Shown piece after piece: positions 127 through 6,785 of a stretch of DNA of 6,785 bases (position 1 is its first letter; every line of letters starts with the position of its first letter). Below the pieces are notes generated by a model, which worked only from the letters and a program-made list of their open reading frames with translations, was not told the DNA's origin and did no database searches. This stretch comes from a bacterium (lineage in GTDB: Bacteria > Coprothermobacterota > Coprothermobacteria > Coprothermobacterales > JAADFF01), in NCBI GenBank assembly GCA_027063755.1, contig JAMORD010000106.1, positions 1-6,785 of the forward strand. Direction: 5' to 3'. The position numbers and the translations under genes were made by a program.

Positions 127-1704
127 ATGAAAAGCAGTGGAAAAAAACTAATAATTATATTAGTATCGCTTTCTCTTATCGTTGGTGTTGTTTGGGTATT
201 TTTACCATCTGGTCGCAAAACACAACAATCACAACATCAACCAAACTCTTCAGCATACAATGCACTAACATCTATTAAGACCCATACAGAAAATATTGCC
301 AATATATATGAAAACAACAAGGCATTTATTGATAATCTGAAAGCCACAGAACCCCTGTATATATGGGGCAGAGGGTACGCCTCAGATACACTTGGTATAC
401 TGAAACAAACACCGCAGTGGAAAACCATAGGCAACATTGATGAAAAGCAAGCAGGTCAGATTATGAACAATGCATCTTCAACGCTTGAAGATCGCCTCTA
501 TGCCATGTCTATGGGATATATCAGCATGTTTAACAAACTCATAGAAAACGGTAAAGGTGTTAGTGGCACTATAGATATGGGTAACTCTTCTATATCGGGT
601 ATTGATGCTCTTGTAAGGGCAAAAGCGGGAGCATATACCCTCGTAGACTGGCAACAGATTGAAGAGAAAACCTCTACGAAGGCCAAGGTAGAATTTATCA
701 GAGATAAATCCAAGGCGTGGGAATCTGCATACAATGACCTTAAAGGCTTATTGACCATTACAGATAAGAAAAAATCTTCTATCGTGATGGATATAGGAAC
801 AACTTACATGGCTGTTTACAATCTAAAAAATATAACCACAAACATGTATAAAAACGCCGACGATATACTGAACAACAAATCTGATGATGTAACGCTAAAC
901 AACATAGACAAAAGCACAATGATGTTTATGCTTTACTCATCAGAATATGCCCGTGTAGGTATAGAAGTATTATCAACACTGAAACAAATGGAATACAGTG
1001 TTAGTGGCAGCATAACCTTAACAAGAGAAGACATAATAAACAGATGTAACAACACATGGCAAAGTATTCAGCAAACATTAGGGATAAATTTACCCGAAGA
1101 CCCAACTTCTACACAGGCTCTTGCAGAAATGAACAAGATTGCAAACAGTCTACTAAAAAAATACAATCTAAACAACAATACCATTGGTAGCATTCTCATT
1201 AACCGTCTAACCAATAATTATGAAAGGTACAAAAAAGTTCTATCCGACCAAAATGGAGACACTTATTATATCTTCTACCTCACAGCACAGAGTAAAGGTA
1301 TAGCAGATTTCCTTAACAACAATCTCAATATTGCCCAGGGGATACTACTTAGGGCTCCCACAAGCACAAACACAATAGCACAAGAACTACAGACAGAAAA
1401 GCTGGCATTTGACAAACTCTATAGCTGGGAAATACGAGAAATAACATCTATATATCAACAGCTTGATAAAGAAGGCAAATACCCTCTTATACTAGACACA
1501 TTCGTATCTATCAGTTCTTCAGGTTATCAGGCGGAATTACTCCTTACTCAAATAAAAAACATCTTGAAAAACTATTCTGAAAATAATATCCTAAATACTG
1601 CTAAAAACATAGTAGGTATATATACGCGATTTATGATTGACAATCTCTACAATCTTATGGATATCCTGACAATCAAAGGAGGCCTATCTATTATCAAAGG
1701 GTGA
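127..1704 (+). CDS. Membrane-anchored Asn-rich protein of unknown function (525 aa)
   Basis: I do not recognise this protein. The ATG is preceded by GAGGAG (112-117) at good spacing, inside the end of the upstream gene. Residues 1-7 are polar and basic (MKSSGKK). They are followed by one hydrophobic segment at about 8-27 (IIILVSLSLIVGVVWVFL), then a basic, Gln/Ser/Asn-rich linker at about 30-42. This predicts a single-pass protein with a short cytoplasmic tail and nearly all of its mass outside the membrane, or less likely a cleaved signal. The remaining 480 or so residues look mainly alpha-helical, are rich in Asn, Ser, Thr, Ile and Lys, and contain a single Cys near residue 307. There are no obvious repeats, sortase motif or catalytic signature. 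It lies directly behind an amidohydrolase gene and ends in a terminator. A role in sensing, adhesion or envelope assembly would be a guess. Confidence 0.85.
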   Translation: MKSSGKKLIIILVSLSLIVGVVWVFLPSGRKTQQSQHQPNSSAYNALTSIKTHTENIANIYENNKAFIDNLKATEPLYIWGRGYASDTLGILKQTPQWKTIGNIDEKQAGQIMNNASSTLEDRLYAMSMGYISMFNKLIENGKGVSGTIDMGNSSISGIDALVRAKAGAYTLVDWQQIEEKTSTKAKVEFIRDKSKAWESAYNDLKGLLTITDKKKSSIVMDIGTTYMAVYNLKNITTNMYKNADDILNNKSDDVTLNNIDKSTMMFMLYSSEYARVGIEVLSTLKQMEYSVSGSITLTREDIINRCNNTWQSIQQTLGINLPEDPTSTQALAEMNKIANSLLKKYNLNNNTIGSILINRLTNNYERYKKVLSDQNGDTYYIFYLTAQSKGIADFLNNNLNIAQGILLRAPTSTNTIAQELQTEKLAFDKLYSWEIREITSIYQQLDKEGKYPLILDTFVSISSSGYQAELLLTQIKNILKNYSENNILNTAKNIVGIYTRFMIDNLYNLMDILTIKGGLSIIKG

Positions 1705-2924: not shown

Positions 2925-3974
2925 TCACACCTCTACTATAGGCTTTGCCAAATGGTCATATTTCATTGCTATATCGGCACATATCTGTCTGTTTCCCCAT
3001 AAACATCGTCTTTCATCTCCATACCTACGAGAAAGCACAAGTATCTTTACCCTCCACATGTTTTCCAAATACTCCACTCCCATCTTCCACCACGGAGGCA
3101 AATATGCATAGTGATATTCATATGCATAGCCACTATCCCACAGGTAAAATGGTATTTTCAATTTATCCCTCAAAAACCCATGTCTCTTTAGCGTTATATC
3201 TGTCCATGGCATGTATACTCCACCAAGCAAATGAGCAAGAACCTCAACAGACATGACAATATACTTAGCGTGCCACCGGCGAGAAGTTAAAATTCCTTCA
3301 AATACAGGAGCATTATCCAATCTTTCAATATAAGAAGGTATTTTGTCAAAATCGTCATCTGGAAGCGTCATTAGAATATCTATCTGCTCGTTCTGTCCCA
3401 CCATATTAAGGAAAGCTCTTCCTTTTATCGGCCCCAGTAGATAAGCATAACGAAGCATATCTCCTAAACTCAACCTCTTTTTCTCCTTTATAAGAGAATC
3501 ATACAAAGCCTTGCTATCTTGGGGCGATGTCTTAAAAAATAAGCGAGCCTTGCGACGAAGCATATACTCTGAATGGGGATTAGGAAACTTTTTATAGTAA
3601 TACCATCCCCTATCTTCATGTCCCATATAAAAGGCAAGATCACCAACCAGTAGTATTTCCCACTGATAATAAGCAATATCTTGTTCCTCACTAAGAATCT
3701 TGCGAAAATATCTCCTGTATACCTCATAAAAGGCTTCTATACCCTTAGACATTCCTTCTAAAAAAGCCAATGTGCGTACAACAAGCGGAGTAGCCTGAAA
3801 ACTAAGTGCTACCCTAACTGTGGAAATGGCGTCTTCCTCCTCACCAGAAAAAAACATATAAAGTGCCCCCAAATGTACAACCCAAGGGTCAAGGATCATA
3901 CCAGATTTTAGTCGCTTTACATATCCATTGTAAACATATTTATCCCATAACCACACAGGCATCACCATTTTCAT
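2925..3974 (-). CDS. Tyr/Trp-rich protein of unknown function (349 aa), first gene of a three-gene operon
   Basis: I do not recognise this protein. It has no signal peptide, membrane segment or nucleotide-binding motif, so it is probably cytoplasmic. Composition is striking: I count 29 Tyr and 12 Trp in 349 residues, with clusters such as WYYYKK, YAYEYHYAYLPPWW and WLWDKY. The middle (about 35-200) reads as successive amphipathic helices of about 15 residues separated by short turns, for example GDLAFYMGHEDRGWYYYKKF then SEYMLRRKARLFF. This suggests a TPR-like helical solenoid, but no repeat fits the TPR consensus well. The last 110 or so residues are aromatic and basic, with two Cys near the end (CLWGNRQIC). 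ATG codons at 3974, 3968 and 3962 are all possible starts and none has a clear SD. It is followed with almost no gap by a GNAT gene and a winged-helix gene. Confidence 0.8.
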   Translation of the reverse strand: MKMVMPVWLWDKYVYNGYVKRLKSGMILDPWVVHLGALYMFFSGEEEDAISTVRVALSFQATPLVVRTLAFLEGMSKGIEAFYEVYRRYFRKILSEEQDIAYYQWEILLVGDLAFYMGHEDRGWYYYKKFPNPHSEYMLRRKARLFFKTSPQDSKALYDSLIKEKKRLSLGDMLRYAYLLGPIKGRAFLNMVGQNEQIDILMTLPDDDFDKIPSYIERLDNAPVFEGILTSRRWHAKYIVMSVEVLAHLLGGVYMPWTDITLKRHGFLRDKLKIPFYLWDSGYAYEYHYAYLPPWWKMGVEYLENMWRVKILVLSRRYGDERRCLWGNRQICADIAMKYDHLAKPIVEV

Positions 3975-4003: not shown

Positions 4004-4012
4004 TGATACAAT
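4004..4012 (+). promoter_or_regulatory. Extended -10 promoter of the tungstate/molybdate transport operon
   Basis: TGATACAAT gives an extended -10 element (TG at 4004-4005, TACAAT at 4007-4012). Transcription would start around 4018-4019, exactly where the folded leader RNA begins. The region 16-18 nt further upstream (around 3983-3990) has no resemblance to TTGACA, consistent with an extended -10 promoter that does not need a -35 box. The agreement with the 5' end of the RNA is the main support. Confidence 0.5.
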
Positions 4013-4152
4013 AAAAACGCCCCGAGCCGGTGGGCCTAAAGGCATAAGCCTATGGCTACCGTGCCGTTAGGGTATGTGGGGAAACCTGCATGCCTGCCAG
4101 TGTGCAAAGGGGTTATAAACATATCCCCTACACACTGGCCCCTGGGGATTTT
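4013..4152 (+). promoter_or_regulatory. Moco/Tuco-type riboswitch aptamer in the leader of the transport operon
   Basis: The non-coding leader folds into a compact multi-stem RNA that can be drawn by eye. Closing stem: CCCC 4020-4023 with GGGG 4144-4147, extended by AAAA with TTTT. Long hairpin 4028-4061: CGGT with ACCG, GCC with GGC, AGGC with GCCT, loop ATAA. Hairpin 4071-4094: GGTATG with CATGCC, enclosing GGGGAAACC. Hairpin 4096-4139: nine pairs GCCAGTGTG with CACACTGGC, then AGGGG with CCCCT. The CCGAGCC start, the CCGTGCC segment and the GGGGAAACCTGC stretch resemble, from memory, the molybdenum-cofactor RNA family, and the genes it precedes import tungstate/molybdate, a known target of that family. 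Whether it senses Moco or the tungsten version cannot be decided here. Structure is well supported; the family name is from recall and context. Confidence 0.72.
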
Positions 4153-4176
4153 GTGTAGAAAGGAGGGGCAGTTGTG
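4138..4176 (+). promoter_or_regulatory. Expression platform: anti-SD hairpin over the permease start
   Basis: The permease SD is AAAGGAGGGG (4159-4168), with AGGAGG 7 nt before the GTG at 4174. GCCCCT (4138-4143), directly after the last aptamer hairpin, is the exact complement of AGGGGC (4164-4169), so a 6-bp stem with a 20-nt loop could hide the 3' part of the SD. G4138 also closes the aptamer hairpin, and the 5' GCCCC (4019-4023) can pair either with GGGG 4144-4147 or with GGGGC 4165-4169, so the pairings compete. This suggests control of translation initiation. The direction of the switch cannot be read from the sequence. Confidence 0.55.
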
Positions 4177-4926
4177 TTTAGATTTTTTTCTACATTACTT
4201 GCATTTCTCATCCTTCTACCATTTATAGGCCTCTCTATATACACAACCCCCTCCGAGCTGTGGCAAGCTTTGACAAACACGGAAGTGCTTGAAGCCTTAA
4301 AAAATAGCTTTGTAGGGGCAACCTATGCAACACTGATGGCAGCCATATTTGCCATACCTATAGGTTATGCACTGGCAAGAGATGTATTAAGACCACGCAA
4401 AGTATGGTTGGCCCTTCTTAACATACCAGCTATGGTACCCCACTCTGTAGGCGGTGTTGTTGTGCTCCTCACATTTTCTCCCAAATATTCTCCCATAGGC
4501 AGATACCTTGCAGAGCACGGATTTTATATAACTGGCACCATGCTGGGCATAGTACTTGCCATGTGGATTGTCAGTGTTCCGTATTTTATCAATGCATCAT
4601 ACGATGCCTTTAAAAGTGTTCCTCACGGGCTTGAAAAGGCTGCAATGAGTATGGGAGCTTCACCACTGATGGCATTTCTTACTATCACATTACCGTTAGG
4701 TTTCAGAGGTCTCATTACTGGTGCAATACAAACATGGGCCCGTGCTGTCAGTGAGTTTGGAGCCGTTGTCATGGTTTCCTACTATCCCAAGACAGCTCCT
4801 GTTATGGTATACGAGCTATTTAACAACTTTGGGTTGAAAAAATCTGTACCCGTTGCCGTCATCACAATGACTATATCTGGTCTTGTATTTATAGTATTAA
4901 GACTGTGGGGTGGCAAGGATGCTTGA
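4174..4926 (+). CDS. wtpB: Tungstate/molybdate ABC transporter permease (WtpB/ModB type)
   Basis: This is the inner-membrane channel subunit, expected to work as a homodimer for ATP-driven import of tungstate or molybdate. At 250 aa it has the usual length. Hydrophobic segments fall at about 5-23, 48-69, 77-100, 120-141, 168-190 and 225-244. The cytoplasmic coupling loop (EAA motif) is EKAAMSMGASPLMAFLTITL (154-173) followed by P174, with the conserved G161. After it, SEFGAVVMVSYYPKTAPVMV (193-212) is typical of molybdate/tungstate permeases. The start is GTG with a strong SD (AGGAGG, 7 nt spacer), and that SD lies in the riboswitch expression platform. It is the first gene of the operon and overlaps the ATPase gene. 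Oxyanion permease is secure; the Wtp rather than Mod label rests mainly on the WtpA-like binding protein downstream. Confidence 0.9.
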   Translation: MFRFFSTLLAFLILLPFIGLSIYTTPSELWQALTNTEVLEALKNSFVGATYATLMAAIFAIPIGYALARDVLRPRKVWLALLNIPAMVPHSVGGVVVLLTFSPKYSPIGRYLAEHGFYITGTMLGIVLAMWIVSVPYFINASYDAFKSVPHGLEKAAMSMGASPLMAFLTITLPLGFRGLITGAIQTWARAVSEFGAVVMVSYYPKTAPVMVYELFNNFGLKKSVPVAVITMTISGLVFIVLRLWGGKDA

Positions 4927-5902
4927 GGTAAAAAACATATCTGCCATATTTGGAAAATTCTCACTAAGAAACATATCTTTTTCTCTAAAAGACGGTAAGC
5001 ACCTTGCCATCGTTGGTCCAACAGGAGCCGGTAAAACCTCACTGATGGAGATTATAGCTGGGGTGAGAAAGCATCAGGAAGGTAAAATCATCTTAGATGG
5101 TCAAGATATTACACACTTACCCCCACACAAACGCAATATATCCATGTTATATCAGCATCTTAGTCTTTTCCCCCACTATACCGTCAGGGGCAATATTGCA
5201 TATCCACTCAGATGGCGAAAAGAAAAAGGCATGTCTATACATGATGTTGCAAGGAATTTAGGAATAGAACATCTTCTGGATAGACATATACATGAGCTCA
5301 GCGGAGGAGAAAAACAAAGGGTGGCACTGGCAAGAGCACTTGTAACAAGGCCCAAAATACTTATGCTTGATGAACCCCTCAGTGCCATAGATATTGTCAC
5401 CAAAGAGCAGGTTATAGCCACAATAAAACACATTCAGGATACATATCAACTCTCTACAATACTCATTACCCACTCACCAGAAGAAGCATATACACTGGCA
5501 GACTATATCGCCATTATCAAAAAGGGCAAACTCGTAAGATACGACACCAAAGACAGCCTATGGAAAAATCCAGAGGATATATGGTTCGCCAAGATGATAG
5601 GTATAAAAAACATCATTCCTATAGATATATGGCGTAAAATGTATCCTTTAAATATTAGCTCCGAGTTTACCCATGTTGGCATTCACCCCGCATCACTACA
5701 ATATGATGTTAATGGCCCCATCATAGGATATGTACAAGAAATTGTCCAGTATCCCCATCACAAAGAAATCATTGTTCAGATAGATAGCGGAGTTTCTTTG
5801 ATATGGCAAACAAACTCACACGAGACAATCTATAAGGGAGAACAAATCTCCCTTTCTATATCACCTAAGAATATATATCCTTTAAAGGAGGAGAAGGCAT
5901 GA
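4919..5902 (+). CDS. wtpC: Tungstate/molybdate ABC transporter ATPase (WtpC/ModC type)
   Basis: This is the cytoplasmic ATPase powering oxyanion import. Numbered from the ATG at 4919 (327 aa), it has Walker A GPTGAGKT (33-40), Q-loop Gln79 (LYQHLSLFPHYTV), signature LSGGEKQRVALARAL (127-141), Walker B ILMLDEP (147-153) and the switch His185 in ILITHS. The D-loop reads SAID rather than the common SALD. After about residue 230 comes a 95-residue beta-rich accessory domain (GIHPASLQYD, then GYVQEIVQYPHHKEIIVQ) as in the TOBE-type C-termini of MalK/ModC-like subunits, where regulatory ligands can bind. The ATG start fits the family N-terminus (MLEVKNIS) and overlaps the permease by 8 nt. An in-frame GTG at 4910 would add three residues. 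It ends in an ATGA overlap with the binding-protein gene. Family certain; the substrate comes from context. Confidence 0.93.
   Translation: MLEVKNISAIFGKFSLRNISFSLKDGKHLAIVGPTGAGKTSLMEIIAGVRKHQEGKIILDGQDITHLPPHKRNISMLYQHLSLFPHYTVRGNIAYPLRWRKEKGMSIHDVARNLGIEHLLDRHIHELSGGEKQRVALARALVTRPKILMLDEPLSAIDIVTKEQVIATIKHIQDTYQLSTILITHSPEEAYTLADYIAIIKKGKLVRYDTKDSLWKNPEDIWFAKMIGIKNIIPIDIWRKMYPLNISSEFTHVGIHPASLQYDVNGPIIGYVQEIVQYPHHKEIIVQIDSGVSLIWQTNSHETIYKGEQISLSISPKNIYPLKEEKA
5884..5891 (+). promoter_or_regulatory. Strong SD for the binding-protein gene
   Basis: AAAGGAGG lies inside the last codons of the ATPase gene with a 7-nt spacer to the ATG at 5899. It settles the start of the binding-protein gene and suggests strong independent initiation, which suits a binding protein needed in excess over the membrane subunits. 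Confidence 0.75.
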
Positions 5903-6785
5903 AGAAACTTTTCCAAGTAGCCTTAGTATTCACACTCATGTTTACTCTTACACTGTCATTTGCATCGTGTGGTTCTTCCGCAAAACAAACTGACACAGCC
6001 ATCAATACCCCAAGTAGCACAATAGCAAACACCAACAACCTAACAGGAGAGCTTATAACAGGTGAGATTACCGTATTTCACGCAGGCTCCTTGTCCGTTC
6101 CGTTTAAGGCTATTGCCGACGCATTTCAGAAAGAGTATCCCGGTGTCACAGTAAAACTTTCCGCAGGTGGTAGCAAGGGGCTCGCCCAGAAGATTATTAC
6201 TTTAAGTGAGCAAGGACAACCTGTTCCTGACATCTACGCATCTGCTGACTATTCTCTTATAGACAGCCTTATTATTCCCCAGAAACTGGCCAACTTCAAT
6301 GTGCTTTTTGCCAAAAACTCCATTGTCATAGCATACACAGACAAGAGCAAATATGCCGATGAAATCAATGCCGATAACTGGTATGAAATACTCTCTCGTC
6401 CAGATATTAGAATGGGTCGTTCTGACCCTGAGCTTGATCCCTGTGGATACAGAAGCGTGCTTGTTATGGAGCTCGCCGAAAAATACTATAAAAAACCGGG
6501 GCTTTATAAAACTCTGAAAGACCATGCTGGAACAGTTATTAGACCTAAAGAGGTAGACCTTGTGGCAGACCTGGAAACAGGCAACATTGACTATTTTTGG
6601 ATATATGAATCTGTGGCCAGACAGCACCACTTCAAATACATCACACTACCTGAGCAGATTAACTTGTCATCTATCCAATATGCAGACTTTTACAAGACAG
6701 CAAGCATAACCCTAACAAAACCTGATGGAAGCAAATACACCGTATATGGTAAACCCATTGTCTATGGTATTACACTTATAAACGG
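5899..6785 (+). CDS. wtpA: Tungstate/molybdate-binding lipoprotein WtpA (3' end cut by window)
   Basis: This is the extracytoplasmic oxyanion-binding subunit that delivers substrate to the permease. The ATG overlaps the ATPase stop (ATGA). The first 295 residues are in the window. A lipoprotein-type signal comes first: MKK, hydrophobic 4-22, then FASC with the probable lipidated Cys24 (Phe at -3 is less usual than Leu), followed by a Ser/Thr/Asn linker to about 55. The mature domain opens with VFHAGSLSVPF (59-69) and continues AGGSKGLAQKI (89-99), ASADYSLI (114-121), AYTDKSKYADEINADNWYEI (145-164), LSRPDIRMG (165-173), LDPCGYRS (179-186) and FWIYESVA (233-240). These match the archaeal-type WtpA/ModA subfamily closely as I recall it. 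That group binds tungstate and molybdate in six-coordinate form using carboxylates; Asp180 and Glu237 are candidate ligands. Only the C-terminal part is missing. Confidence 0.92.
   Translation, partial: MKKLFQVALVFTLMFTLTLSFASCGSSAKQTDTAINTPSSTIANTNNLTGELITGEITVFHAGSLSVPFKAIADAFQKEYPGVTVKLSAGGSKGLAQKIITLSEQGQPVPDIYASADYSLIDSLIIPQKLANFNVLFAKNSIVIAYTDKSKYADEINADNWYEILSRPDIRMGRSDPELDPCGYRSVLVMELAEKYYKKPGLYKTLKDHAGTVIRPKEVDLVADLETGNIDYFWIYESVARQHHFKYITLPEQINLSSIQYADFYKTASITLTKPDGSKYTVYGKPIVYGITLIN

Follow-up and report, generated by a model that had tools for sequence, protein, structure and literature searches.

The wtpBCA locus

The stretch of DNA analysed here (the window) comprises 6,785 nucleotides and is one whole contig of the genome of a bacterium of the Coprothermobacterota (GCA_027063755.1, contig JAMORD010000106.1; 1.5 Mb in 251 contigs, 88% complete). 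It carries a leader RNA that sits before molybdenum/tungsten transport genes (wtpBCA), as is expected of a member of the Moco/Tuco RNA family (RF01055). The genes and the signals for their expression are:

127-1704 (+): open reading frame of 525 aa, no Pfam or NCBIfam match
2925-3974 (-): open reading frame of 349 aa, no Pfam or NCBIfam match, divergent from wtpB
4004-4012 (+): extended -10 element TGATACAAT, read directly from the sequence
4161-4169 (+): Shine-Dalgarno (SD) sequence AGGAGGGGC, 7 bases before GTG 4174, read directly from the sequence
4174-4926 (+): WtpB-like permease with a GTG start; best NCBIfam match NF040839, 237 bits, under the cut-off of 340
4919-5902 (+): WtpC-like ATPase; best NCBIfam match NF040840, 256 bits, under the cut-off of 440
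5899-6785 (+): WtpA, the substrate-binding protein, truncated at the end of the contig; TIGR03730, 306 bits, cut-off 243

The original prediction had assigned these genes to a WtpBCA operon. This was borne out for WtpA, which scored over its cut-off, but only in part for the other two proteins: the Wtp models rank best for both, but the curated equivalog cut-offs are not reached, and they are accordingly named WtpB-like and WtpC-like. The C-terminus of WtpA continues on a second contig (C131), where it is followed by a convergent gene. Since the end of wtpA precedes this convergent gene, the operon consists of three genes. The interruption of wtpA is an assembly break and not a broken gene; the gene is complete across the two contigs. 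Positions 6655-6785 of the window repeat the end of contig C131 (L043 1375-1671).

The same leader and gene order were found in the genome of a sister species (G001, where loci L008 and L062 are one contig). The WtpB proteins of the two are 88% identical, and a search for WtpB in named genomes returned one close relative only. The sister genome retains the divergent reading frame at 2925-3974, which ends 44 bases before the riboswitch in the window.

The extended -10 element proposed earlier is present as TGATACAAT, and the sister species has TGATATAAT at the same place. Transcription is thus expected to start at ~4018-4019, which places stem P1 of the leader at the extreme 5' end of the RNA. 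A generic sigma-70 scan does not list this promoter, since the scan requires a -35 box and no -35 match is present.

The leader belongs to the Moco/Tuco family and lacks P3

A cmscan of the whole window returned RF01055 as the sole match over the gathering score, at 4008-4128 on the forward strand (64.3 bits, cut-off 36, E 3.8e-14), and the leader of the sister species scored 64.4 bits against the same model. It is therefore near certain that the leader is a member of the Moco/Tuco riboswitch family. Its parts are:

4008-4128 (+): Moco/Tuco aptamer, P3 absent (RF01055 match, model 1-135)
4019-4023:4109-4113 (+): P1 (RF01055 match, fold, covariation)
4019-4023 (+): P1 5' strand GCCCC; aptamer partner 4109-4113, alternative partners 4144-4147 or SD 4165-4169
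4026-4064 (+): P2 with a CCTAA...TATGG tetraloop-receptor-type bulge (RF01055 match, covariation; receptor description from PMC2408646)
4065-4069 (+): junction CGTTA at the P3 position (P3 deleted in the cmscan alignment)
4070-4095 (+): P4 hairpin of 11 pairs with a GAAA tetraloop (loop in the 4080-4083 region)
4096-4113 (+): P5 (4096-4097:4104-4105), conserved AAAGG and P1 3' strand GGGGT 4109-4113 (RF01055 match, covariation)

The gap between P2 and P4 comprises 5 unpaired bases and the match skips the model's P3 positions as a deletion, which shows that P3 is missing. According to the rule given by Regulski et al. 2008 (PMC2408646), a GNRA loop on P4 pairs with a receptor in P2. The window RNA has both elements, with GAAA as the GNRA-type loop of P4 and a receptor-like bulge within P2. 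P5 reads GC...GC, as opposed to CC...GG in the family, a compensated change that is common to some other members. The aptamer of the sister species is nearly identical, with an A-U pair in P1 in place of G4019-U4113. The leader folded better than 200 of 200 dinucleotide shuffles (z = -4.2).

Covariation was assessed in 26 P3-less leaders from unrelated genomes that were aligned by sequence alone. Standard pairs occupied 89.8% of the proposed-pair cells, as compared to 68.2% in shuffles and at most 50.1% with slid partners, a control that is biased towards the tested structure because this came from one member of the alignment. Changes on both sides were present in 26 of the 32 pairs (9 of 11 in P4), a number reached by 0 of 500 shuffles, and the covariation score was 0.591 vs 0.187. 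The original prediction had described a Moco/Tuco-like leader with four stems and had suggested covariation among homologous leaders as a check. The family call is confirmed by the covariance-model match together with covariation, the four stems correspond, checked letter by letter, to P1, P2, P4 and P5 of RF01055, and all four show strong compensatory changes.

An anti-aptamer hairpin competes with P1 and P5

Downstream of the aptamer, the following elements were identified:

4096-4139 (+): anti-aptamer hairpin, 4096-4104:4131-4139 (9 pairs) and 4108-4112:4125-4129 (5 pairs)
4125-4129 (+): CCCCT, bound to the 3' strand of P1 in the absence of ligand and, once released, a candidate anti-SD
4138-4143 (+): GCCCCT, candidate anti-SD, exact complement of AGGGGC 4164-4169
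4144-4147 (+): GGGG, taken up by the P1 5' strand when no ligand is bound (probability in folds with 26 nt of coding RNA: window 0.90, sister 1.0)

When the RNA was folded without constraints, the helix 4096-4104:4131-4139 formed at a probability of 0.98-1.0 in both species, with P1 absent. The full hairpin of 14 pairs disrupts both P1 and P5. A 9-base match between the linker and the 3' part of the aptamer arose by chance in 8 of 2000 shuffles (0.4%) in the window and in 3 of 2000 (0.15%) in the sister. The 9-pair core of the hairpin is identical in the two species compared, whereas the inner strand is CCCCT in the window and CCTTT in the sister, where the pairing partner is still the same purine strand, in a different register (AAAGG:CCTTT). 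A further stem, 4128-4134:4152-4158, has 7 pairs in the window and only 4 in the sister and was not relied on.

Base-by-base folding of the growing RNA gave a P1 probability of 0.95 up to position 4125, 0.45 at 4128 and 0.02 at 4131. The hairpin thus displaces P1 by 4131; the polymerase footprint, which lies outside the fold model, would lengthen the interval. In folds that include neither ligand nor tertiary contacts, the free form was ~14-18 kcal/mol more stable than the bound form. Therefore, if the RNA is a switch, the choice made by the ligand must be kinetic.

For the SD, two candidate pairings are available in the window, 4138-4143:4164-4169 or 4125-4129:4164-4168. The sister has a shifted anti-SD of five pairs (CCCCC:GGGGG), which is predicted at a probability of 0.96-0.98 for RNA ends up to +26. 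The mechanism originally proposed was built on masking of the SD by GCCCCT. The exact GCCCCT:AGGGGC complement does exist, but a match of this length arose in 282 of 2000 linker shuffles (14%), which is within chance, and the 6-base match was thus rejected as proof of a switch. Likewise, both GGGG 4144-4147 and GGGGC 4165-4169 are possible partners of GCCCC 4019-4023, as had been noted, but the main partner of this strand, the P1 strand GGGGU 4109-4113, had been missed. SD masking is still plausible as a mechanism; what had been overlooked is the anti-aptamer hairpin, the better-supported switching element as compared to the SD match, of which SD masking would be the likely outcome.

The mean unpaired probability of the SD in the window was 0.30 in the free and 0.52 in the bound form for an RNA ending at the start codon, and 0.07 and 0.18, respectively, when 26 nt of coding RNA were included. 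For the sister leader at +8, the free and bound values were 0.66 and 0.65. The computed openness of the SD is not cleanly OFF-like because in the free form the SD has further partners, namely the 5' coding RNA and the 5' strand. Pairing of the P1 5' strand with the SD was rejected as the main, conserved off state, since it is lost in the sister.

Relation to known Moco and Tuco RNAs

The window RNA resembles the P3-less (Tuco) sub-type of RF01055 in matching the whole model in sequence and structure, in the absence of P3, in the GAAA loop with its receptor, and in a gene context of tungsten transport and tungsten enzymes. It differs from the sub-type as published in that its lineage is not among the groups named in the abstract of PMC2408646, and in having a strong anti-aptamer hairpin as its platform. 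With the E. coli moaA Moco RNA it shares the aptamer core and, probably, translational control. However, the E. coli RNA has P3 and responds to Moco and not to Tuco (PMC2408646), whereas the window RNA is P3-less, and the ribosome-binding site (RBS) lies inside P1 in E. coli but downstream of P1 in the window. By description, it can also be likened to the Pelobacter carbinolicus RNA of Regulski et al., which is P3-less and precedes a tungstate-class (wtp) transporter, albeit in a different lineage. Among the papers searched, there was no earlier report for the present lineage. The window RNA adds a further member to an established family.

The genome context favours the tungsten cofactor as the ligand

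P3-less RNAs have been found to go with tungsten genes in the organism and P3-plus RNAs with molybdenum genes, and the 2008 assignment of P3-less RNAs to Tuco rests on this correlation and on gene context (Regulski et al. 2008, PMC2408646). In the source genome, P3 is absent from the leader and tungsten genes are present, namely three genes for aldehyde:ferredoxin oxidoreductase (AOR) and wtpA. A second RF01055 match, likewise without P3, lies on contig C124 (L002 1501-1609, reverse strand, 37.1 bits) and ends at the start of a gene for a tungsten AOR. It has a GCAA loop and no receptor, and in its fold the 5' strand ATCACCCTC pairs with GAGGGTGAT in the SD. As modelled, this platform is of the type in which P1 itself carries the RBS, and it differs from that of the window RNA. 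The AOR-leader copy is also found in the sister genome (L045 906-1014).

The genome further contains two MoeA genes and one formate dehydrogenase-type protein, which could use Mo or W. Searches of this 88% complete genome gave no match to the xanthine-oxidase-type cofactor domain (Mo-hydroxylase family), no match to TupA and no match to ModA over the cut-off, the ModA search returning only the WtpA of the window. Wtp-type binding proteins accept molybdate as well as tungstate. The original prediction had raised the question of a response to the tungsten cofactor. The evidence leans towards Tuco (P3 absent, AOR-leader copy, no ModA or TupA); thus, the sequence data favour, without proving, Tuco over Moco for the window RNA, and a tungsten-cofactor ligand is what we infer.

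The association of P3 with downstream genes was also viewed in a census of RF01055 matches from 389 genomes, in which 118 RNAs were classed by P3 and downstream gene. The P3 calls were based on folding and on inspection by eye, the gene calls on clustering and representatives, such that single rows may err. P3 was absent from all RNAs before AOR (8/8) and WtpA (8/8), from 15 of 17 before TupA-like and from 4 of 4 before TupB genes (together 19/21), whereas 5 of the 9 RNAs before ModA had P3. Both kinds occur together in the genomes of one genus (G115, G239, G352), where ModA is preceded by P3-plus RNAs and WtpA by P3-less RNAs (loci L077, L087, L095 with L133, L139, L150). There were exceptions in both directions: P3-plus RNAs precede wtpB-like genes in one genus (L006, L113, L137) and TupA in one genus, and P3-less RNAs are found upstream of ModA (3 genera) and of moaA (13 genera). 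The absence of P3 is thus an imperfect marker of Tuco. As a strict marker it was rejected, since by genus the transport genes show a trend only (P3-plus genera: 2/5 for ModA vs 2/~27 for tungstate transporters; one-sided hypergeometric ~0.1, calculated by hand).

Two further gene contexts were seen in the census. P3-less RNAs precede genes for NAD-type aldehyde dehydrogenases (PF00171) in several genera (L090, L112, L118, L131, L143, L145, L157, L158), as does the P3-plus RNA L075. These enzymes need no tungsten, and the leaders could serve to switch between isozymes that oxidise aldehydes with and without tungsten; among the papers searched, none mentions both. P3-less RNAs were also present before TonB-dependent receptor and porin genes (L082, L086, L094, L108, L119; L016, L085, L155), and these receptors and porins might bring tungstate or molybdate across the outer membrane.

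A putative co-transcriptional OFF switch on metal import

We consider it probable that the P3-less RF01055 riboswitch acts co-transcriptionally as a translational OFF switch on wtpBCA and senses the tungsten cofactor. During transcription, the aptamer (P1, P2, P4 and P5) would form first. With the tungsten cofactor bound, P1 and P5 would be held and the C-rich stretch 4125-4143 would stay free to pair with the purine-rich SD, by which import would be lowered. Without the cofactor, 4125-4139 would invade P5 and the P1 3' strand to give the anti-aptamer hairpin, and the released P1 5' strand would take up GGGG 4144-4147; both C-rich strands would then be occupied and the SD available. The OFF logic follows from the free state occupying both C-rich strands while the bound state releases the SD complements. 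The RNA would most likely be an ordinary feedback switch that lowers metal uptake when the cofactor is plentiful. In E. coli, production of the cofactor leads to repression by the Moco RNA (PMC2408646), and by analogy the OFF direction would fit both this precedent and what is expected for a metal importer. We infer Tuco as the ligand, the OFF direction and a kinetic decision; thermodynamic folding by itself leaves the direction unsettled, as the models predict no opening of the SD in the free state.

This lack of opening bears on the opposite direction, an ON switch in which GCCCC masks SD 4165-4169 without ligand and is locked into P1 by the ligand, which frees the SD. Indeed, if the RNA stops at the start codon, pairing of 4019-4023 with 4165-4169 reaches a probability of 0.99 in the free fold, and the SD is the more open in the bound form (0.52 vs 0.30). 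However, the equivalent pairing in the sister has only four pairs and a probability of 0.00-0.01, and with more coding RNA the pairing in the window drops to 0.02, GGGG 4144-4147 replacing the SD. A metal importer that takes up more when the cofactor is abundant would also be unusual, and repression is what the E. coli member exerts (PMC2408646). We thus regard an ON switch as improbable. Transcription termination, for which other family members use intrinsic terminators (PMC2408646), appears more improbable still, to the point of being hardly credible here: a terminator scan found no intrinsic terminator or terminator-like site from the aptamer to wtpB, which is why we consider control to be translational, the alternative stems have no terminal T run, and the switching strands lie within reach of the SD.

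The alternative that concerns the ligand is less easily set aside, though we still consider it unlikely. The same riboswitch could respond to Moco or to either metal form, in which case the importer would be controlled by total metal cofactor. Either Mo or W may serve the formate dehydrogenase of the genome, ModA is preceded by P3-less RNAs in 3 genera of the census, and transporters of this class may not discriminate, according to Regulski et al. (PMC2408646). Against this, both copies in the genome are P3-less and the second one serves a tungsten oxidoreductase, and the genome gave neither a Mo-hydroxylase family match nor ModA.

Within the favoured reading of a Tuco-sensing switch, a more specific version is conceivable but doubtful, in that the decision window of the kinetic switch may be very narrow: P1 would be stable for ~15 nt past its completion before the 14-pair hairpin takes over. 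If so, expression of the one Mo/W importer recognised in this lineage would be set by cofactor binding during transcription.

Since 2008, the assignment of P3-less RNAs to the tungsten cofactor has rested on gene context. The present lineage is well suited to address it, with two P3-less copies that differ in platform, one before the sole importer recognised and the other before the gene for a tungsten enzyme, and with no ModA match. The genus from the census with P3-plus RNAs before ModA and P3-less RNAs before WtpA would provide a natural control for ligand specificity.
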